DNA of 25,266 nt from IMG/VR virus record IMGVR_UViG_3300031857_001262, positions 1-25,266 of that record; one strand, written 5' to 3'. Below the pieces are notes generated by a model. The model searched no databases. It saw nothing but the letters and a program-made list of their open reading frames with translations, and had not been told where the DNA came from. Below are positions 3,748 through 23,017 of the stretch, piece by piece. The translations under genes and the position numbers were made by a program. Numbering within the stretch: position 1 is the first letter of the stretch; each line of letters opens with the position of its first letter. This stretch comes from a virus.

Positions 3748-5166
3748 ATGGCCACTCTCACCAAAGGCAAAACCTTCACCAACGGCGAACTCGTCACCCC
3801 GCAAAAGCTCCACGAACTCGTCGATCTGGGCACCGTCTCCGGCATCGTCAATGCCGACATCGCCGCCGGTGCAGCCATCGCCGACAGCAAGCTCGCGCAG
3901 ATCACCACGGCGGGGAAGGTGCTGCCCGCTGCGGTGCAAGGCACGGCAGTGATAACGACCGACTCCCGCTTGTCGGATGCTCGGACGCCGGTGACGCATA
4001 CGCATGATGACCGCTATTACACTGAGGCGGAGATGACTACGCTTTTGGCAGGCAAGCAAGCGGCTGGAAGCTATGCGCCTTCAACAGGGATTGCGCCAAG
4101 CGCTATTACGGGAACGGCTGTGATAACGACTGACTCGCGCCTGTCGGATGCTCGCACTCCTTCTGATGGGAGTGTCACCAACGCCAAAATCTCTTCCACG
4201 GCAGCTATCGCCGACACGAAGCTCGCCACAATCAGCACCGCCGGGAAAGTCAGCAACTCCGCCACTACGGCGACAAACGCCAATACAGCCAACGCCATCG
4301 TCGCAAGAGACACCAGCGGCAACTTCTCCGCAGGGACAATCACCGCCGCCTTGTCTGGCAACGCTGCTACCGCAACGACAGCGGCATCCTGCTCTGGCAA
4401 CGCTGCTACCGCGACCACGGCGGCATCCTGCTCTGGCAACGCTGCTACCGCGACCACGGCGGCATCCTGCTCTGGCAACGCTGCTACCGCGACCACCCTG
4501 CAAACAGCCCGCACAATCAACGGAGTCTCATTTAATGGCAGCGCAGACATCACGGTCACTGCTAATCCGAATGCGCACACGCACGATGACCGCTACTATA
4601 CTGAAACAGAAATAACTACACTGCTTTCAGATAAACAAAAGATCAATGGGCAAACAATTTCTGCTGGTTTAAATTGGAACGGTAACACGGGAATCCGGTT
4701 TTCTAATATCCCATCGGGGGTGCAAAAATTTACATTATTAGTTGAAATTTGGATTCATAATTACGACAGTTCACCTGGACGAGGAGTGGTAAATATCGGC
4801 ACAACAACATCTGGGCTCATCACTTGGAACTCATCAGGAGTTATTGCGAACCCTTATTATGCCGCAGTTAATAATGCGGAAAATAGTGCAGGATTTGAAA
4901 TTACAGGGGGAGTAAATACATCGGCCGAGCATGTTGGCGTGTTTAATTTTTATGTAACAAATAACCCGTTTTCTCCCACTACTCAAAAACGGCTAATATG
5001 CGAATCGCATGTCACGCAAAGAAATACTTCGACGGGGGCTATCACAATTTTACAAGGAACAGGCTACATAGATTACACAGGAGAAATTAACGAATTTGTG
5101 CTAAGGCCTGTTTACGGTTCAAATGCAGTAGCAAGTGCCGCTGCGCGTTTATACTTCTATTACTAA
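3748..5166 (+). CDS. Tail fibre protein with phage tail repeats
   Basis: A 472-residue fibre, starting 2 bp after the previous stop. The N-terminal half is built from repeated phage-fibre modules: GTAVITTDSRLSDARTP occurs twice (about residues 68-84 and 122-138), HTHDDRYYTE twice (about 87 and 277), and an IAD-K-LA-I-TAGKV module twice. Next comes a tandem array of SGNAATATTAASC units (residues about 203-250) and a TINGVSFNGSADITV segment, typical of trimeric fibre shafts. The C-terminal about 190 residues are different: aromatic, Asn/Gly-rich and without repeats, as expected for a receptor-binding tip. The DNA falls from about 68% G+C (3841-3900) to 40% (4861-4920), which suggests the tip was exchanged. 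The fibre would bind the host surface at the start of infection. Confidence 0.9.
   Translation: MATLTKGKTFTNGELVTPQKLHELVDLGTVSGIVNADIAAGAAIADSKLAQITTAGKVLPAAVQGTAVITTDSRLSDARTPVTHTHDDRYYTEAEMTTLLAGKQAAGSYAPSTGIAPSAITGTAVITTDSRLSDARTPSDGSVTNAKISSTAAIADTKLATISTAGKVSNSATTATNANTANAIVARDTSGNFSAGTITAALSGNAATATTAASCSGNAATATTAASCSGNAATATTAASCSGNAATATTLQTARTINGVSFNGSADITVTANPNAHTHDDRYYTETEITTLLSDKQKINGQTISAGLNWNGNTGIRFSNIPSGVQKFTLLVEIWIHNYDSSPGRGVVNIGTTTSGLITWNSSGVIANPYYAAVNNAENSAGFEITGGVNTSAEHVGVFNFYVTNNPFSPTTQKRLICESHVTQRNTSTGAITILQGTGYIDYTGEINEFVLRPVYGSNAVASAAARLYFYY
4354..4497 (+). repeat. 39-bp tandem repeat in the fibre shaft (3.7 copies)
   Basis: Copies begin at 4354, 4393, 4432 and 4471, each opening tctggcaacgctgctaccgc and encoding the 13-residue unit SGNAATATTAASC. 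The second and third copies are almost identical, while the first has a few synonymous changes (caacgacag against cgaccacgg), so the array has expanded recently. The period is a multiple of three, so copy-number changes lengthen or shorten the shaft without breaking the frame. Confidence 0.95.
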
Positions 5167-5171
5167 AACCT

Positions 5172-6950
5172 ATGGGTAAAAAGAAAAAATCCAAACAAGC
5201 CGCGCCCCCGCCACCGCAGCAGCGAGACTTTGCGAATGAAATGGGGCAAATTTCTGCTTTTTCCACGAAAAATGCCAAATCCCAGGCGAACATCACCGTA
5301 AATACGGCAGGCCGACTCAGCGACAAAGCCGTAGAAAGCACCGGCAAAATAGCCAAGAAGCTCGAAGACAGCACCTACACCGCCGCCGCAAACCAAAACA
5401 TCCGCGATGCCGGAACCTCGTCCGCCCAGCTCGGCCAGAGCTCCAACCAAGTCGGCCAAGTCGCCGACCGGGTAGCCGCCTACAACGACCCCGCCCAAGC
5501 TCGGCTCAACCAGATAGCCCTCGGGAACCTCTACCGCCCCGACCAAATTTCCTCCCAATCCGTCTCCGCCGCCCAAGTGCAAGGCGCCCGCGTCGCCGAT
5601 GTGGGCCAGATGGACTACGCCCGCCTCGGCCAAGTCAACGGTGTCCAAGGCCCCGCAGGCTACGCCGCCGATCAAGTCCGCGCCCAGCGCATACGCGCCG
5701 CACAGGCCGGACCCGTCGATAATGTATCTTCTAACAACATCCGCGCCAGCGCCGCCGAGCGAGGGTTGATGAACGAAGCCCGTGGAGGAGGACTCCTCGG
5801 TCAACTCGAAAACCAAGCCTCAAACGATCTCGCTCTCGGTCGCTCACTCTCCGCCGAGCAATCCCGCGACGCCACCCAATCCGCCCGAGCTGCCGCATCG
5901 GCCCGTGGCCTTGGCGTCGGCCAGTCTGCCATGGCTACAGAGCTTCTAAATCGTGACCGCTTTGCCACCCAGCGCGAAGCCGAGCGCCGAGGATTTGCCA
6001 GCAATGTCGCACAGCAAGGCGTCGGCATCCGCACCGCAGCAAACCAAGCCTACATAGGCAGGCAGGAAAGCAATTCCGGCCGAGCACTCCAAGCCGATCT
6101 CGCCAACCAATCCGCCGGTCTTAATCTCGGTCAAACAAACGCCCAGCTTCTACAGCAAAGCCGCCTCGCCAACCAATCAGCAGGCCTCCAGGCACAACAA
6201 GCCAACCAGTCCGCCAACGCCCGAGCCCTTGAATTTGCGCAGCAGGGCGGGCTCCAAGCCTCCCTGGCAAACCAGCAAGCCGGACTCTCCCAAGCCGCCG
6301 AGCAGGCCCGCCTGCAACAAACCGCCATTGGAGCCTCCTACGACGCCTCCCAGCAACGCGCCATGGCGGATGCAGGCTACGCCCAGCAAGCCGGGCTCGC
6401 CAACCAATCGGCCAACCTCAACGCCGCGCAATACAACAGCAGCCAAAACCTCGCCGCCCAGCAGGCGAACCAATCGGCAAACTACAACGCGAATTACGCG
6501 AATCAAAATTTCCTCCAAGGCGTCGCCAGCCAGAATTTCAACCAATTCCAAGGCCAGCAAGGCATGCTCGGCTCGCTCTACGGCCAGCAAGCAGGCATCG
6601 CGCAAAACCAATACGGCAACAACCTCGGCCTCGCCCAAGCGCAAGTCGCCCTCGACCCCTTCCAACGCGCTCTCGGAAGCAACATCCCCACCGCCTCCCA
6701 AGGCAACGCCGCTTCGATGATTGGCCAGTCCTTTGCCAACACCATGCAATACGGCAATGACCTCTACAATACGAACACCAACATGGGTGCTTCCATCTAC
6801 AACAGCTACCAAAACAACAACGCCGCCCTCATGGGAGCCAACCAGCAAGCCGGAGCCACGGCTGCCGCCTCCCGAAACAACATGATGGGAATGGGCATCG
6901 CTGGCGGCGGCATGGCCGTCGGCATGATTGGAGCCGCCGTTATTATCTAA
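5172..6950 (+). CDS. Gln/Asn/Ala-rich repeat virion protein with C-terminal hydrophobic segment (candidate ejection protein)
   Basis: A 592-residue protein starting MGKKKKSKQ, 5 bp after the fibre stop. The N-terminus is basic, then Pro/Gln-rich. Residues about 300-470 contain a low-complexity repeat with the core [LQ]ANQ[SQ]A (for example LANQSAGLNLGQ, LANQSAGLQAQ, LANQQAGLSQ, LANQSANLNAAQ), with alanine-rich spacing that suggests long helices. The last about 22 residues (MMGMGIAGGGMAVGMIG, then AAVII) form a Gly/Met/Ala-rich membrane-type segment at the extreme C-terminus. This architecture, within a late virion block of a podovirus-like genome, resembles internal or ejected proteins that form a channel across the cell envelope. 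That function is inferred; no named family is claimed. Confidence 0.7.
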   Translation: MGKKKKSKQAAPPPPQQRDFANEMGQISAFSTKNAKSQANITVNTAGRLSDKAVESTGKIAKKLEDSTYTAAANQNIRDAGTSSAQLGQSSNQVGQVADRVAAYNDPAQARLNQIALGNLYRPDQISSQSVSAAQVQGARVADVGQMDYARLGQVNGVQGPAGYAADQVRAQRIRAAQAGPVDNVSSNNIRASAAERGLMNEARGGGLLGQLENQASNDLALGRSLSAEQSRDATQSARAAASARGLGVGQSAMATELLNRDRFATQREAERRGFASNVAQQGVGIRTAANQAYIGRQESNSGRALQADLANQSAGLNLGQTNAQLLQQSRLANQSAGLQAQQANQSANARALEFAQQGGLQASLANQQAGLSQAAEQARLQQTAIGASYDASQQRAMADAGYAQQAGLANQSANLNAAQYNSSQNLAAQQANQSANYNANYANQNFLQGVASQNFNQFQGQQGMLGSLYGQQAGIAQNQYGNNLGLAQAQVALDPFQRALGSNIPTASQGNAASMIGQSFANTMQYGNDLYNTNTNMGASIYNSYQNNNAALMGANQQAGATAAASRNNMMGMGIAGGGMAVGMIGAAVII

Positions 6951-6953
6951 CCC

Positions 6954-8027
6954 ATGAAACAACTGATTGCGGAAACCGTAGATCGAATCCACGCCTGGCA
7001 CACCCGCTGGCCAAACGCCGCCGTGCTTTGGAGCGGCGGCAAAGACAGCACCGCCATGCTCCATGTGCTTCTGCACTACTGCGGCATCGACCTCCCTGTC
7101 GTGCAATACCGTGAGCCCAAGCTGCGTGAGCGCTACGCCTACAGCGACCGCCTCATCAAAGAATGGGGCCTCACCATTTACGACTACCCGCCGACACGCA
7201 TGGCCATCGCCGACGGGCCAGATACCGAGACCGGCGAGATGCGTTTCGACATGCTCAAATACTACCAGTGGGGCGAGACCGCTGTGGTGATGAGCCTCGG
7301 CACCGAGCGCCCCAAGCCCGGCGAGAGATTCCTTTGCGGCGTCACCGATTTCCTGCAACGCCCCACCGGCAACTTCAACTGGCCATGGGAAGCCGTATTT
7401 ATCGGCACCAAATACGAAGACACCGACCTCATCAAAGGCCATGTCCCTCTCGCTCTCGATATCCGCAATGTCCCAGGCGGTCCAGTGAGCCTCTACCCCA
7501 TGCGCGACTGGAGCGACAAGGACATCTACACCTACCTCGAAGACCACGGCGTCACGCCCGACCCCACCCGCTACATCAAGACCGAAGCCGGATGGGTCAA
7601 CAACCCCGACAAATCCCTCAACGCCGACTTCTACCCCACCTGCTTCAACTGCGTGGACCGCCATGCAGGCCCGCATGTGGACTGCCCCAAGCTCAAAGCC
7701 CGCATCAGCAACATCAGCCACCTCGCCCCCTACGAAGACATTGTTTTCCCCGACCTCGGTTTCAAACCTATATGGAATACGACTGCCAACGGTGTGGAGC
7801 CTGTTGCTCCCACAAATGGAGCTGGCCCGTGCTACGGCGCGACCGCTCCGACGCCACCGGCATCCCTGCCGACTACCTCCGCGATGACCTTCCTCTCTTA
7901 CGAACCGACCCTTGCGGCCGCTGTATCGCCCTCCGTGGCGAAGTGGGCCGAGGAGTCGCCTGCGCAATATACGAATCCCGCCCCCAAGCCTGCCGCTCAT
8001 TCCAGCCCGGCAGCGCACTCTGCATAG
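6954..8027 (+). CDS. PP-loop PAPS-reductase-family protein (possibly ending functionally near residue 275)
   Basis: The N-terminal domain carries the PP-loop SGGKDST at residues 27-33 (AVLWSGGKDSTAML) and continues through the adenine-nucleotide alpha-hydrolase fold, with the family-like stretch VSLYPMRDWSDKDIYTYL. A cysteine group C230-x2-C233 and C244 (CFNCVDRH, then DCP) lies near the end of the domain. The family activates a substrate through ATP or binds PAPS; phage members are adjacent to sulfur-transfer, tRNA or DNA-modification enzymes. The CysH-type KECGLH motif is absent, so classical sulfate assimilation is doubtful. After W274 the reading frame stays open for 83 more codons but becomes Pro/Ala/Thr/Ser-rich without structure, exactly where a YkgJ-type gene is read in the -1 frame. 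Those residues may be an artefact, an overlap, or the result of a lost stop. Confidence 0.85.
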   Translation: MKQLIAETVDRIHAWHTRWPNAAVLWSGGKDSTAMLHVLLHYCGIDLPVVQYREPKLRERYAYSDRLIKEWGLTIYDYPPTRMAIADGPDTETGEMRFDMLKYYQWGETAVVMSLGTERPKPGERFLCGVTDFLQRPTGNFNWPWEAVFIGTKYEDTDLIKGHVPLALDIRNVPGGPVSLYPMRDWSDKDIYTYLEDHGVTPDPTRYIKTEAGWVNNPDKSLNADFYPTCFNCVDRHAGPHVDCPKLKARISNISHLAPYEDIVFPDLGFKPIWNTTANGVEPVAPTNGAGPCYGATAPTPPASLPTTSAMTFLSYEPTLAAAVSPSVAKWAEESPAQYTNPAPKPAAHSSPAAHSA

Positions 8028-8074
8028 AAGCCCGAACCAAGAAATCCCTACCATGCCATACGCCCCAACCGTAA
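7772..8074 (+). CDS. YkgJ-type cysteine-cluster (Zn/Fe-chelating) protein, nested in the 3' end of the PAPS-reductase frame
   Basis: A 100-residue protein starting MEYDCQRCGACC. It has the complete cysteine-cluster layout: C5-x2-C8-x2-C11-C12, then C48-G-R-C51 and C64-AIY-x2-RP-x2-C74-R, followed by a final C84 after a GS pair. This C.IY..RP..CR signature is characteristic of the YkgJ / UPF0153 family, which binds zinc or iron and is otherwise poorly characterised. Upstream in this frame the residues are Arg/His/Pro-rich shadow sequence, so ATG 7772 is the natural start, although no clear Shine-Dalgarno precedes it. The coding region lies in the -1 frame relative to the PAPS-reductase gene and overlaps its last 256 bases; it also overlaps the next gene by 22 bases. 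Function together with the PP-loop protein, such as metal or sulfur handling, is inferred from adjacency. Confidence 0.85.
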   Translation: MEYDCQRCGACCSHKWSWPVLRRDRSDATGIPADYLRDDLPLLRTDPCGRCIALRGEVGRGVACAIYESRPQACRSFQPGSALCIEARTKKSLPCHTPQP

Positions 8075-8544
8075 ACGACAACTCCGGCCAGATCCTCGCC
8101 GGTTACCAAACCCGCAGCGCCGAAATCACAGCCGCTGGCAACGAAGCCCTCACCAAAGGTATCGTCTCCGGTGTAACCAGCGCCATTGGTGGCATTGCCG
8201 GAGCCTACACGCAAAGCCGCATGCAAGCCGCCGGCGGCAAAGCCTTCAAGGAATTCATGGGCGTTGCCGGACCCTCCATGGGCCTCAAGGACGAGCAGCT
8301 AAAAATGTTCAAAGGCATGAACGACCAAGACGCCTTCCAAATGAGCCAGATGTTCATGCCGGTGGCCCCGTCGATGGTTTCCGCAAACACTTGGGCGCCT
8401 CGCGCAGCCATGCAAAGCCAAAACGCCGTTTACCAAAACCAAGTCCCCGCCAACCAGCAGCCGGTCAGCGCCGGCGGTGGCGGTGGCGGTGCCGCTCCTG
8501 CCGCATCTCCTATGGGCGGCGTGAACTTCAACTTTGTCAACTAA
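8053..8544 (+). CDS. Small virion-like protein with glycine-rich segments
   Basis: A 163-residue protein beginning MPYAPTVNDNSGQ, in the late block. Residues about 33-60 (LTKGIVSGVTSAIGGIAGAY) form a Gly/Ala/Ile segment with GxxxG spacing that could insert in or pack against a membrane. The middle is Met/Phe-rich (MKMFKGMNDQDAFQMSQMFM), and the C-terminus has a (G)5 run and NFNFVN. The start at 8053 overlaps the YkgJ gene by 22 bases and its stop overlaps the next start by one base. The composition and position between the Q-rich virion protein and the giant protein are those of minor podovirus ejection or tail-associated proteins. No family was recognised. Confidence 0.65.
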   Translation: MPYAPTVNDNSGQILAGYQTRSAEITAAGNEALTKGIVSGVTSAIGGIAGAYTQSRMQAAGGKAFKEFMGVAGPSMGLKDEQLKMFKGMNDQDAFQMSQMFMPVAPSMVSANTWAPRAAMQSQNAVYQNQVPANQQPVSAGGGGGGAAPAASPMGGVNFNFVN

Positions 8545-9395
8545 TGAGCGACCAACTTCGACCCGAGGATTTGGATGCGTTTGCCCAAAGCTACGACATC
8601 CCAGGCGCCGTGCGTGAAATGCCTCCGAAGCCCTCCAAAGGCAATAGCTATGACTTTAGTGGTATCGTTGTGCAAAGCCCCGAGGATTTTGCGCGTCTGC
8701 CAGAGTCTCAAAAGCAACTCCTGCGAAATATGAAGCAGGGCATCCAATACACTCCCGAGGCCGCCGCTTCGTTCGTGGAATCTTTCAATCAAAAGCAACT
8801 GGAGCAATCGACGCCGCAAGCCCAGGCCCAACTACAAAAAGCACAGCTTGACATTGAAAAGGCAACAGCAGAAGCGGCACAAATTCAGCAGCGCAAGCAG
8901 GCCGCCTCGTCCGAGATCGCCGGCATGCGCCAGATGCTCGCCGAGCTGAAAGGTCACCCAGGCATGAGCACCTCGGTAGGGGCTAAGGGCATCGAATACA
9001 ATTTCGGAATGGCAAAAGAACCTTACGGCGGAACAAAAGCCGCCGACTTCTACACGCTCCTCGAGCAGGTGCAGGGCGGCACATTCATGCAAGCCTTCGA
9101 CAAACTCAAGGGCGCCGGCCAGATCACCGAGCAGGAAGGCGCAAAAGCCACCGCCGCCATTGCCCGACTCAATGCTAGGCAATCAGAGGAAGGATTTGCA
9201 AAAGCCCTCATGGACTTTGATGGCGTCCTCGCCCAAGCCCAGGCGCGATCCCAACCCACCGCCCCGCAAGCTGCGGCAACCGCTCCCCAAGCAGCCCCGC
9301 AAGCCGCACCGGCACAACCCCAACAACCCGCCACCCGCGTTATCGGCGGACGCACCTTTATCCAACAACCGAATGGCAACTGGATCCCCCGCTAG
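8544..9395 (+). CDS. Virion-associated protein with coiled-coil region and Pro/Gln/Ala-rich tail
   Basis: A 283-residue protein. ATG 8544 overlaps the previous stop by one base and was chosen over an in-frame upstream extension that reads as a basic shadow. The N-terminus MSDQLRPEDLDAF echoes the TEELDAL motif repeated in the following giant protein. Residues about 85-145 (QLEQSTPQAQAQLQKAQLDI onwards) are Glu/Gln/Ala-rich and predict a coiled coil. After a globular-looking middle with TTLLEQVQGG-like helices, the last about 60 residues are Pro/Ala/Gln repeats (PQAAATAPQAAPQAAPAQ) ending in a short GGRTFIQQPNGNWIP motif. Directly upstream of the giant protein, it is likely another ejected or internal virion component. 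No enzyme motif is visible. Confidence 0.65.
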   Translation: MSDQLRPEDLDAFAQSYDIPGAVREMPPKPSKGNSYDFSGIVVQSPEDFARLPESQKQLLRNMKQGIQYTPEAAASFVESFNQKQLEQSTPQAQAQLQKAQLDIEKATAEAAQIQQRKQAASSEIAGMRQMLAELKGHPGMSTSVGAKGIEYNFGMAKEPYGGTKAADFYTLLEQVQGGTFMQAFDKLKGAGQITEQEGAKATAAIARLNARQSEEGFAKALMDFDGVLAQAQARSQPTAPQAAATAPQAAPQAAPAQPQQPATRVIGGRTFIQQPNGNWIPR

Positions 9396-15353: not shown

Positions 15354-15454
15354 GTTGCCGGTTGTTGTTGGTGGTTCGCGTTTGTTGCCGTTTGGTTATT
15401 TCTTGCAAAAGTGGGCAACACGGGCAACAGAGTGGGCAACAACTTCTCTCTTTT
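15354..15454. promoter_or_regulatory. Candidate integrase arm-type sites (cgggcaaca repeats) upstream of the integrase
   Basis: The octamer gggcaaca occurs at 15413-15420, 15422-15429 and 15434-15441, and once left of the core at 15203-15210; inverted near-copies (tgttgccg) lie at 15382-15389 and near 15354. Repeats on both sides of an attP core are the pattern of arm-type binding sites recognised by the integrase N-terminal domain. The last copy ends 13 bases before the integrase start, so integrase binding could also control its own expression. Inferred from position and repetition only. Confidence 0.5.
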
Positions 15455-16471
15455 ATGAACCAATTCTTTGTCTCTCCTTACCCGCAGCGGCCGGCCACTC
15501 CTTGGAAATTGACGATTCCGCAGGCGGTGGCGGGGGTGCGGATTCGTCGATTTTTTCACACGGAGGCGGAGGCTTGGGCGGAGGGGCCGCGGATTTTGGA
15601 GAGGCTGCGCAAGGGGGGGACGGATGCGCTGGCGCTGGCGCCGCAGGGGATGAGTATGCGGGCGGCGGTGCGGGACTATGTGGCGAGCAAGGCGAAGAAG
15701 TCGGACAATCATCGGCAGAAAATTGAGCGGGTTTGCGCGGCGTTGATTGAGGCGTTCCCGGGGGCGGTGGCGGGGGTGACGCCGATGGCGGCGGCGCGGT
15801 GGTTCTCGACGATTGAGGGCAGCCCGACGACTCGGGCGGGCTGGCACCGGTATGCCTCGGGGTTTTTTTCCTGGTGCGTGGATATGGAGATCGCGGAGCG
15901 GAATCCTCTGCGGAAGGTGGAGGCGCCGCGGGCGGAGTCGAAGCGGTCGCTGATTTCGGCGAAGGAGTTGGTGGCGATTTTGGATGAGGAGATGAGTGAT
16001 GGGCTGAGGGCTTGGTTTCTTTTGGGTGCGTTTGCGGGGCTGCGGTCGATTGAGGTGGCGCGGATGCGGTGGGAGGATGTGGATGCGAGGGCGGGGCAGA
16101 TCGAGGTGCGGCGGGAGGTGAGCAAGCAATCCTCGGGGCTGCCGGAGCGGATTGTGGATTTCACTGAGCCGTTGAAAAAGCGGGCGGATTTTTTCAACAA
16201 GAGGAGCGGACAGATTGTGCCGGAGCATTCGCTGCGGCTTTATCGGGAGCGGATGAGGCTGGTGGAGGGGCTGGCGGAGCGGGGGGAGTTGCCGTGGACG
16301 AAATTTCCCGAGAATGCGCTGCGGCACTCGTATGCGACTTACCACTTGGCGCGGGGGCAGGACGCGCAGAAGACGGCTCACCAAATGGGGCACTCGACCT
16401 CGGCGATGGTGGAGCGGGTGTATGCGGTGCCGGCGCGCAAGGCGGATTGGCGGGCTTGGTGGCGGGTGTGA
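15455..16471 (+). CDS. int: Tyrosine integrase (phage site-specific recombinase)
   Basis: A 338-residue tyrosine recombinase that would catalyse integration at the adjacent attP and its excision. The start at 15455 (MNQFFVSPYPQ) follows an AT-rich stretch; the upstream in-frame residues come from the attP DNA. The N-terminal core-binding helices cover about 60-160 (SMRAAVRDYV, then WHRYASGFFSWCVDMEIAERNPL, a strong family hallmark). Catalytic residues: R197 in AFAGLRSIEVARM, R290-H291 in NALRHSYATY, H313 in MGHST and the nucleophile Y323 in RVYA. The usual first His of the HxLRH box is Asn (N287). The gene is the first of the G-rich block, and its stop lies 22 bp from the end of the converging lipoprotein gene. 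Confidence 0.95.
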   Translation: MNQFFVSPYPQRPATPWKLTIPQAVAGVRIRRFFHTEAEAWAEGPRILERLRKGGTDALALAPQGMSMRAAVRDYVASKAKKSDNHRQKIERVCAALIEAFPGAVAGVTPMAAARWFSTIEGSPTTRAGWHRYASGFFSWCVDMEIAERNPLRKVEAPRAESKRSLISAKELVAILDEEMSDGLRAWFLLGAFAGLRSIEVARMRWEDVDARAGQIEVRREVSKQSSGLPERIVDFTEPLKKRADFFNKRSGQIVPEHSLRLYRERMRLVEGLAERGELPWTKFPENALRHSYATYHLARGQDAQKTAHQMGHSTSAMVERVYAVPARKADWRAWWRV

Positions 16472-21406: not shown

Positions 21407-21840
21407 CAATCCTTGCCCTCGACCCCGGCACGACCGAGACGGCGTTTGTCCTTTGGGACGGGCGCCGGATCCTCGATGCGGACCACCTGCCGAACGCGGA
21501 GATCAGACAAATCCTGATCGGCCGCGAATATGACGCGGTGGCCTGTGAGATGATCGCCTCCTACGGCATGGCGGTGGGCAAGGAGGTCTTCGAGACCTGT
21601 GTGTGGATCGGGCGGTTCGTGGAAGTGGCTCGGGTGGAGCCGCGCTTGGTCTACCGGCGGGATGCGAAGCTGCACCTCTGCCACTCGCCGCGGGCGAAGG
21701 ATGCCAATGTGCGGCAGGCGCTGATCGACCGCCTCGGGCCGCAGGGCACAAAGAAGAACCCCGGCCCCACCTACGGCATGCGCTCCCACCTGTGGGCGGC
21801 GCTGGCTGTGGCGGTGTATGCGGGGGATGTGAAGGAATAA
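21403..21840 (+). CDS. RuvC-like Holliday-junction resolvase
   Basis: A 145-residue protein starting MTILALDPGTTETAFVL. D7 in the LALDPG strand and E49 in AVACEM are the first two acidic residues of the RuvC/RNase H-like core; the third motif region is AKDANVRQALIDRL near 99 and SHLWAALAVAV near 133, where the Asp usual in RuvC (HDxxDA) is replaced by a Ser-His-x-Trp arrangement seen in phage relatives. The enzyme would cut branched DNA produced by recombination or replication, before packaging. ATG 21403 overlaps the previous stop; further upstream in-frame codons lack the family start. It is followed after two bases by the doubly coded methyltransferase locus. Confidence 0.85.
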   Translation: MTILALDPGTTETAFVLWDGRRILDADHLPNAEIRQILIGREYDAVACEMIASYGMAVGKEVFETCVWIGRFVEVARVEPRLVYRRDAKLHLCHSPRAKDANVRQALIDRLGPQGTKKNPGPTYGMRSHLWAALAVAVYAGDVKE

Positions 21841-21842
21841 AA

Positions 21843-23000
21843 ATGTGGATACTACCAAAGAATTTACAGCTATCGAGTGGTGCGCCGGATACGGCGGGAT
21901 TCATCTCGGACTTAAACGAGCAATCCCAAATCTGCGCGTCATCGCTTATGGCGAGATCGAAGGCTTCGCCTGCGCGAACTTGGTTGCAAAAATGGAAGCG
22001 GGACTCTTGGACCCAGCACCTCTCTGGACGGATATTAAGACCTTCCCATGCGAGGACTTTCGTGACCGAGTGGACCTCCTTGTGGCCGGTTACCCCTGCC
22101 AGCCATTTTCCGCAGCCGGAAAGCGACTCGGCACAGAAGACCCTCGCCACCTCTGGCCACACATCGCCAGATCAATACGAGTTATTCGACCTCGACTATG
22201 CTTCTTTGAGAATGTCGAAGGACACATCTCCCTCGGACTCCGAGAAGTCATTGGAGAGCTGGAATCAATCGGTTACAAAGCGGCGTGGGGAATATTCAGC
22301 GCGGCTGAAGTCGGCGCACCGCACCAGCGCAAGCGGGTCTTCATCTTGGCCTACGACCAACGCACGAGATTGGAAGGATTCTGTCAATTCAGTTCCGCCA
22401 TCAGTAGGTCAGACTCGAGGTCACAGCCTTGGAATGGCTGTAGCGGAGAAGAATTGGCCTACGACAGCAGCGCGGGATTACAAAGGAACATCTCCCAATT
22501 ACTTAATGCGCAAGGATGGGAAGAGTCGAGCGGATCAGTTAGCTGTTGCGGTGGATTTGGAAGAACAGGTGAATTGGCCCACCCCAACGGTGCAGGAAGC
22601 GGGCAAGATTGGCAATCAAGCCAATCATGGCCAATTAGCTTTAAGCAATCACCCCGCGATTCGCGGAGAAGTGAATCGGGACAAATACGACAAGGGCAAG
22701 CATGGCCTTCCCGCCCCGGCCAACCCCAGCACGGATGGGAGCCGCCCAGAGTCGTGGGCAACGCCAGAGTGCAAGAACCATGTAGGCTATCAAGTGGATC
22801 GGACAGGAGCGATGTGGCCACGGCTTGGGAGTCAAGTGGCAGGCAAGCTCAACCCTCGATGGGTGGAGACGCTGATGGGACTGCCGGTGGGCTGGGTTAT
22901 GCCGAGTTGTGCGTCACCTGTGACAATCGAACCGACGAGCTACGCCTCCTCGGCAACGGAGTCGTGCCTGCCACCGCAGAGCGAGCTTTTCGCGTTTTAA
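21843..23000 (+). CDS. Candidate overlapping gene: 385-residue Trp-Pro-Thr repeat protein inside the methyltransferase gene
   Basis: ATG 21843 (MWILPKNLQLSSG) opens a frame of 385 codons that runs in parallel with the methyltransferase, which starts at GTG 21845, and ends 17 bases before it. Both share the aagga site at 21832-21836. The product is Ser/Thr/Lys/Trp-rich and not Arg/Pro-biased as most shadow frames here are. It has four WPT/WATP elements at residues 169, 205, 245 and 305 (SSWPTTNARDWKD, KNWPTTAARDYKG, VNWPTPTVQEAG, SWATPE) and LNPRWVETLMGLPVGW at 336-351, a signature I recall in stand-alone phage proteins found beside cytosine methyltransferases. A second expressed protein is therefore plausible. 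Other shadow frames in this window are also long, so openness alone proves nothing. Function unknown. Confidence 0.5.
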   Translation: MWILPKNLQLSSGAPDTAGFISDLNEQSQICASSLMARSKASPARTWLQKWKRDSWTQHLSGRILRPSHARTFVTEWTSLWPVTPASHFPQPESDSAQKTLATSGHTSPDQYELFDLDYASLRMSKDTSPSDSEKSLESWNQSVTKRRGEYSARLKSAHRTSASGSSSWPTTNARDWKDSVNSVPPSVGQTRGHSLGMAVAEKNWPTTAARDYKGTSPNYLMRKDGKSRADQLAVAVDLEEQVNWPTPTVQEAGKIGNQANHGQLALSNHPAIRGEVNRDKYDKGKHGLPAPANPSTDGSRPESWATPECKNHVGYQVDRTGAMWPRLGSQVAGKLNPRWVETLMGLPVGWVMPSCASPVTIEPTSYASSATESCLPPQSELFAF

Positions 23001-23017
23001 TAGAAGAACTTATTTAA
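21845..23017 (+). CDS. DNA (cytosine-5) methyltransferase
   Basis: A 390-residue C5 methyltransferase; the GTG start gives MDTTKEFTAIEWCAGYGG. Motif I is AGYGGIHLGL (14-23, the S-adenosylmethionine site), motif IV is PCQPFS with catalytic C85, motif VI is ENV at 122-124, motif VIII is QRKRVFI at 161-167, and motif X is LLGNGVVPATAERAF ending about 382. Residues about 170-350 are the target-recognition region, here unusually repetitive with LAYD and LAHPNG segments. It would methylate cytosine in phage DNA against host restriction. No cognate nuclease was found, so it appears to be an orphan. The composition differs from the G-rich flanks, and nearly the entire gene is overlapped by another open frame. 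The stop overlaps the helicase start by one base. Confidence 0.92.
   Translation: MDTTKEFTAIEWCAGYGGIHLGLKRAIPNLRVIAYGEIEGFACANLVAKMEAGLLDPAPLWTDIKTFPCEDFRDRVDLLVAGYPCQPFSAAGKRLGTEDPRHLWPHIARSIRVIRPRLCFFENVEGHISLGLREVIGELESIGYKAAWGIFSAAEVGAPHQRKRVFILAYDQRTRLEGFCQFSSAISRSDSRSQPWNGCSGEELAYDSSAGLQRNISQLLNAQGWEESSGSVSCCGGFGRTGELAHPNGAGSGQDWQSSQSWPISFKQSPRDSRRSESGQIRQGQAWPSRPGQPQHGWEPPRVVGNARVQEPCRLSSGSDRSDVATAWESSGRQAQPSMGGDADGTAGGLGYAELCVTCDNRTDELRLLGNGVVPATAERAFRVLIEELI

Follow-up and report, generated by a model that had tools for sequence, protein, structure and literature searches.

Stepwise stop-codon loss as the probable origin of a 256-nt overlap between a PP-loop gene and a YkgJ-type gene in uncultured phages

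In a 25,266-base virus record (IMGVR_UViG_3300031857_001262, positions 1 to 25,266; the whole stretch is referred to here as the window), a PP-loop gene and a YkgJ-type gene on the same strand share 256 nt, the YkgJ-type gene being read one base back in frame. The overlap goes back to loss of the stop with which the upstream PP-loop gene used to end at the junction. Comparison with related phage sequences makes it very probable that these are two adjacent, separately started genes, which came to overlap through stepwise loss of PP-loop stops and yield two proteins, with the present TAG stop maintained by selection and the PP-loop tail serving as filler.

The gene pair in the window and in its relatives

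The PP-loop ORF occupies positions 6954–8027 of the plus strand (357 codons) and has an SGGKDST sequence near its start. Its PAPS-reductase/CysD-like body (6954–7775) scored 24.1 bits against Pfam PF01507 (PAPS_reduct; curated cut-off, 22.5) and runs to Trp274 (TGG at 7773–7775), a residue that was invariant in two alignments (10/10 and 18/18 sequences), as was the SGGKDST loop in the aligned PP-loop relatives. Members of this family usually end a few residues past the invariant Trp. The PP-loop domain is complete, and the original suggestion of a replaced 3′ end was wrong on this point. After W274 the frame continues for 83 codons (7776–8024; NTTANGVEPVAPTNGAGP...AHSA) to a TAG at 8025–8027. 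An ATG at 7772 opens a 100-codon ORF in the −1 frame of the same strand (7772–8074), which carries CQRCGACC, CGRC and CAIYESRPQACR and scored 35.2 bits against PF03692 (CxxCxxCC; curated cut-off, 23); the predicted YkgJ-type cysteine cluster and the −1 overlap were both borne out, the latter also by the relatives. Pairwise pN/pS comparisons indicated purifying selection on the PP-loop body and on YkgJ (mean pN 0.070, mean pS 0.251 over 903 YkgJ pairs). With the Asp preceding the first Cys of YkgJ numbered 0, the TAG spans YkgJ codons 81–82 (ATA GAA). The next late gene (8053–8544, plus strand; 163 aa, no PHROG match) begins 25 nt past the TAG, and the genes around the pair are late genes with matches to virion structural and tail fibre proteins.

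Several other features of the window were recorded. A tail-fibre-like protein (3748–5166) contains near-identical tandem copies of a short Ala/Thr/Ser-rich unit (NAATATTAASCSG), an integrase family match (phrog_1, E 1e-32) lies mid-record at 15362–16471, and ARAGORN found no tRNA gene in the record. At 21603–23000 and 21845–23017, a cytosine methyltransferase ORF (390 aa) shares its DNA with an ORF of 465 aa in a different frame, which looks like real protein. PHROG 1008 (DNA methyltransferase) matches residues 160–432 of the 465-aa ORF (E 2.7e-24), and the last part of PHROG 1008 matches the C-terminus of the 390-aa ORF. These two ORFs may represent either another overlap of far greater length or a two-frame methyltransferase.

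Related loci carrying both genes (102 distinct loci) were classed by the position at which the PP-loop frame stops. Full overlap was found in 45 of them, two of which are cut by contig ends; the 43 with a readable end all terminate at the same TAG. Ten viral loci (L002–L011), with 92–100% identity in the PP-loop body, share the extension, L003 being cut by a contig end. A search seeded with YkgJ recovered many loci in which YkgJ was 78–89% identical and the PP-loop body only 53–59% identical, all with the long overlap. The order that had been proposed for checking, a PAPS-reductase-like gene followed by YkgJ, was kept on the same strand in 77 of the 78 YkgJ-seeded loci (L098–L175), the exception (L126) beginning at a contig end. 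A later set, deduplicated on YkgJ alone, comprised 120 loci with both genes, of which 44 showed full overlap (42 readable, all ending at TAG), and five further YkgJ loci without a PP-loop gene (L126 and four bacterial loci, L213–L216).

One full-overlap locus with the same TAG (L212), which comes in addition to the 45 and belongs to the later set, lies on contig CAMCXK010000004.1, titled as a Chthoniobacter flavus MAG; the contig also has SMC and M20-peptidase genes and a terminase. If the MAG was binned rightly, at least one phage of the group is a Verrucomicrobiota prophage.

Since the same arrangement and the same stop recur in dozens of related phages, the overlap is real. The suggestion that resequencing might reveal a base error restoring a stop near 7775 is excluded by the many independent contigs with the same reading. 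The probability that an error of sequencing or assembly, or a decaying gene, accounts for the arrangement is close to nil: nothing was found in its favour, the reading recurs across contigs of many separate metagenomes as well as a MAG, and purifying selection acts on both YkgJ and the PP-loop body.

Start of the YkgJ-type gene and the frameshift reading

The statement that no Shine-Dalgarno sequence precedes the YkgJ ATG held true (best match before 7772, 3 nt, GGT), yet this is not special, because none of the seven late-gene starts checked between 1410 and 8053 exceeds a 3-nt match. The absence of a Shine-Dalgarno sequence was accordingly dropped as a clue. The YkgJ start codon is ATG in 41 of the 45 full-overlap loci and CTG in four; where checked, the start codon joins the last base of the codon ahead of the conserved Trp codon to the TG of the Trp codon. 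YkgJ-frame stops occur shortly before the YkgJ start in six loci (L005, L008, L052, L069, L094 and L150), in three of which (L052, L069 and L094) a TAA directly precedes the ATG, so that YkgJ must start by itself in these phages. The case for separate initiation is weaker in the four CTG loci (L099, L102, L123 and L125), the only lineage in which the start is puzzling: the nearest ATG, GTG or TTG there is a TTG about 100 nt upstream, and YkgJ stays intact.

It had also been proposed that a −1 shift would fuse the two domains into one protein. A heptamer that fits X XXY YYZ perfectly does occur in the PP-loop frame of the window (T TTC CCC, 7745–7751, plus strand), the −1 frame is open from there to YkgJ, and a fusion made there would spare the start codon in the four CTG loci. 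Those four loci, however, all fall outside the small set of loci that have a usable heptamer: among 71 loci with full or partial overlap, only seven have a slippery heptamer that is in frame, lies within 150 nt and is followed by an open −1 frame, and TTTCCCC itself is found in five of the seven. T TTC CCC is confined to the window-type lineage, where L009 has C TTC CCC instead, and in L005 and L008, which retain the heptamer, an in-frame TAA intervenes before YkgJ, in addition to the TAA codons directly before the ATG in L052, L069 and L094. Folding of six sequences without pseudoknots gave no unusual RNA structure downstream of the heptamer (z +0.23 to −1.05). A conserved slip site with a downstream structure was not found; the heptamer appears incidental, and a programmed −1 frameshift was rejected on the grounds of its lack of conservation, the closed −1 frame in L005 and L008 and the missing stimulatory structure. 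We regard a PP-loop::YkgJ fusion made at this site as very improbable. Separate initiation remains the preferred reading: YkgJ would start from its own ATG without a Shine-Dalgarno sequence, as elsewhere in the late operon, and a long PP-loop protein with a floppy tail would be made beside it as a second protein.

Growth of the overlap, the replacement TAG and the tail

The alternative offered originally, that the stop of the PP-loop gene had been lost, is supported by relatives of about 70% identity, in which the PP-loop gene stops 2–7 codons past the same Trp. Between these and the full-overlap loci stands a half-way class of 24 loci, in which the PP-loop frame ends 118–124 nt beyond the point where the Cys motif of YkgJ begins (the class had 25 rows; L200, with Leu-Leu on a short contig, was judged to be cut off and left out). 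The half-way stop is a TGA or TAA made by a Leu (CTG, TTG or CTA)–Met (ATG) pair of YkgJ. All 44 full-overlap loci of the later set have Leu-Leu at this spot (CTC TTA at 7895–7900 of the plus strand in the window), and the PP-loop-frame stop is gone there as a consequence. The Leu-Met pair, with its latent stop in the PP-loop frame, is also present in relatives whose PP-loop gene ends before YkgJ, which indicates that the stop predated the overlap. We considered whether selection keeps the Leu-Met stop in the half-overlap set and found this unsupported, because the same codons make a latent stop in the non-overlapping relatives. In two more loci the PP-loop frame ends at 97 nt, and a further two (71 nt) differ in how the frames are related.

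The simplest course that fits these classes would begin with loss of the junction stop of the PP-loop gene, after which the PP-loop frame would have been caught at the Leu-Met stop of YkgJ; a Met-to-Leu change in YkgJ would then have removed this half-way stop, leaving the PP-loop frame to end at the TAG near the end of YkgJ. The PP-loop bodies among the full-overlap loci form three groups (7, 27 and 8 of 42 tested). The window-type body shows its best identities, 0.72–0.73, to non-overlapping relatives, and at best 0.58 to the other two bodies, whereas the window-type YkgJ reaches 0.93 identity to the YkgJ sequences of those two groups and at most 0.66 to non-overlapping ones. This contrast suggests that recombination took place at the junction or close to it, without a change of frame.

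The TAG at the end of the long frame shows signs of being kept by selection. Codon 81 of YkgJ is CTA in 22, ATA in 19 and TTA in 2 of the 43 full-overlap loci, followed by GAA in every one, and these are rare codons: CTA and TTA together make up about 2% of Leu codons in the PP-loop bodies and 6% in the other window genes, and ATA makes up 3% and 5% of Ile codons, respectively. On the overlap tree, parsimony placed 10, 0 and 0 changes at positions 1, 2 and 3 of codon 81, while the other codons averaged 1.2, 0.75 and 3.3. With random synonymous codons at local usage, the chance of a stop at this exact place is 0.025 per sequence. Simulations under the YkgJ protein and codon usage only (a simple home-made codon model; two rates, 200 runs each) kept the stop in a mean of 30.5 and 24.0 of the 43 tips, and in no run at either rate (0/200 each) was it present in all 43. 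Among 47 columns consisting only of Leu, Ile, Val or Met (12 in YkgJ and 35 in the body), codon 81 was the sole column with A as the third base in all sequences. The TA at this place is mostly missing in non-overlapping and half-overlapping relatives.

The invariance extends beyond the stop itself, with GAA and GCC beside the TAG in 43/43 loci and a 17-nt block, CTCTGC-N-TAGAAGCCCG, constant in all 43 except at one base; the next gene begins 25–45 nt downstream of the TAG. A DNA or RNA element kept for its own sake, such as a promoter or a translation signal for the next gene, might be read from this. Against such an element, the single variable base of the block is the one just outside the TAG triplet, the TA is absent from most of the sister sets, the flanking codons other than GAA are common ones in the phage, and no Rfam match was found in 6500–8600; we consider an element that is not kept as a stop to be highly doubtful. 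Selection on the TAG as a stop, in turn, implies that ribosomes translate the PP-loop frame as far as this codon. Evidence for translation comes from pN/pS for the YkgJ frame, and for the PP-loop frame only through selection on its stop. The next stop in the PP-loop frame lies 7–455 codons past the TAG in 40 of the 43 loci and beyond the available sequence in three, and 21 of 42 loci have the likely ATG of the next gene in that same frame, so loss of the TAG would send translation into the next late gene. Avoidance of such read-through may be why the TAG is conserved.

The 83 residues ahead of the TAG are Pro/Ala/Ser/Thr-rich (62% A, P, S or T) and are predicted to be disordered (AlphaFold pLDDT 26–34), in line with the original description of a Pro/Ala/Thr-rich stretch without structure. 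This composition needs no special cause, since C makes up 61% of YkgJ third bases and the PP-loop body, when read in the same shifted frame, gives a similar 66% A, P, S or T. Nor is the openness of the frame remarkable, because 65% of trials per sequence with the YkgJ protein and random synonymous codons remain open; avoidance of premature stops was not significant (0.075–0.305 of simulations have none). Tail identity (0.777) did not exceed the 0.78–0.795 obtained in simulations with YkgJ constraint only, the simulated tails being slightly too similar because codon positions 1 and 2 changed too rarely in the model. Each third base of a YkgJ codon is also the second base of a tail codon, so selection acting on the tail would be expected to lower synonymous divergence in YkgJ. 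In pairs with a body pS of 0.1–0.2 (n = 173), the body (0.167) and the overlap (0.164) were equal; in more distant pairs the overlap pS was lower than that of the body (0.204 versus 0.254 in 108 pairs; 0.246 versus 0.336 in 79 pairs), a difference that could stem from weak constraint or from recombination having given the two parts separate histories.

These distant pairs, the opening of the tail to one and the same stop in 43/43 loci behind three types of PP-loop body, and the selection on that stop would suit an overprinted segment under selection as protein, such as a flexible tether or docking tail. The equal synonymous divergence in close pairs, an identity no higher than YkgJ constraint predicts, the insignificant lack of premature stops, the half-length tails in 24 loci and the predicted disorder argue against this, and we consider it unlikely. 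A test for amino-acid constraint in the second frame did not detect any, and as judged from sequence comparison the tail is not clearly selected as protein. It would be a tolerated filler rather than a domain. There is a slim chance that it is instead a functional but sequence-tolerant tether, a disordered 80-residue arm supplied by the partner's gene whose frame and end are kept while recombination swaps the bodies, with YkgJ of the CTG lineage made through a non-canonical start or a shift.

Comparison with known proteins and overlaps

The PP-loop body is most like ATP-using sulfur enzymes of the CysD, CysH, TtuA and LarE type, as judged from its sequence and its model. It shares the SGGKDST loop with CysD (1zun), CysH (6vpu), TtuA and LarE, and matched CysD 1zun at 5e-08 in a sequence-profile comparison. 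The best fold matches of its AlphaFold model, a weak one (mean pLDDT 59.4), were CysD (1zun_A, E 4.7e-07) and CysH (6vpu, E about 1e-05), with TM-scores on this low-confidence model of at most 0.35 by query length. Unlike these enzymes, the phage protein has a CFNC...C pattern of its own near the C-terminus. Sulfonucleotide (PAPS/APS) reductases are marked by the catalytic cysteine motif ECG(L/I)H. The ECGLH motif is absent from the PP-loop ORF translation, and the NCBIfam phosphoadenylyl-sulfate reductase model gave 17.1 bits against a cut-off of 154; a true PAPS/APS reductase was rejected for these reasons. Among annotated phages, the PP-loop protein had no match at E 1e-5 and a distant relative had none at E 1e-3.

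With the YkgJ/CxxCxxCC family (PF03692) the phage protein shares the cysteine motifs and a score above the curated cut-off; within this family the phage lineage has SWP and DRSDA motifs of its own. The structure model is of low confidence (mean pLDDT 44.6), no relative of solved structure was found, and no NCBIfam model matched at E 0.1. Matches in annotated phages were confined to two Acinetobacter phage records at about 32% identity. From the two families and the co-occurrence of the genes, the pair is probably an ATP-dependent (PP-loop) sulfur- or metal-transfer enzyme with a metal-binding partner. An uncharacterized enzyme pair is conserved here in many uncultured phages, at least one of them apparently with a verrucomicrobial host.

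The loci form a clean natural series of the growth of a long same-strand overlap, from a normal stop through a half-way stop to a stop at the far end, and the series captures the amino-acid change in YkgJ by which the middle stop disappeared. Signs of selection are seen on the final stop and none that are clear on the new protein segment, and the case shows how a stop codon can persist, by way of the partner gene, in spite of codon bias. The case also advises caution, as such gene pairs are not to be read as frameshift fusions.

A literature search, at the level of listings and the beginnings of abstracts, returned no paper on the PP-loop/YkgJ pair or its overlap. Fonseca et al. (2013, PMC3887535) give 3′ elongation of the upstream gene as the more frequent route to unidirectional overlaps and describe overlaps in phase 2 as likely to stay short. 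The phage overlap resembles the 3′-elongation cases of that paper in that the stop of the first gene was lost and replaced by a stop inside the second: relatives have the earlier stop, the upstream gene is elongated and the downstream gene is otherwise intact. It also has their phase 2, the phase of 1- and 4-nt overlaps, but 256 nt is long for this phase as the paper treats it. The phage set differs from the cases presented there in that the intermediate steps can be seen, as can selection on the stop that replaced the original one. The overlap thus looks like a known way of gene overlap, ordinary in kind and unusually well documented by its relatives.
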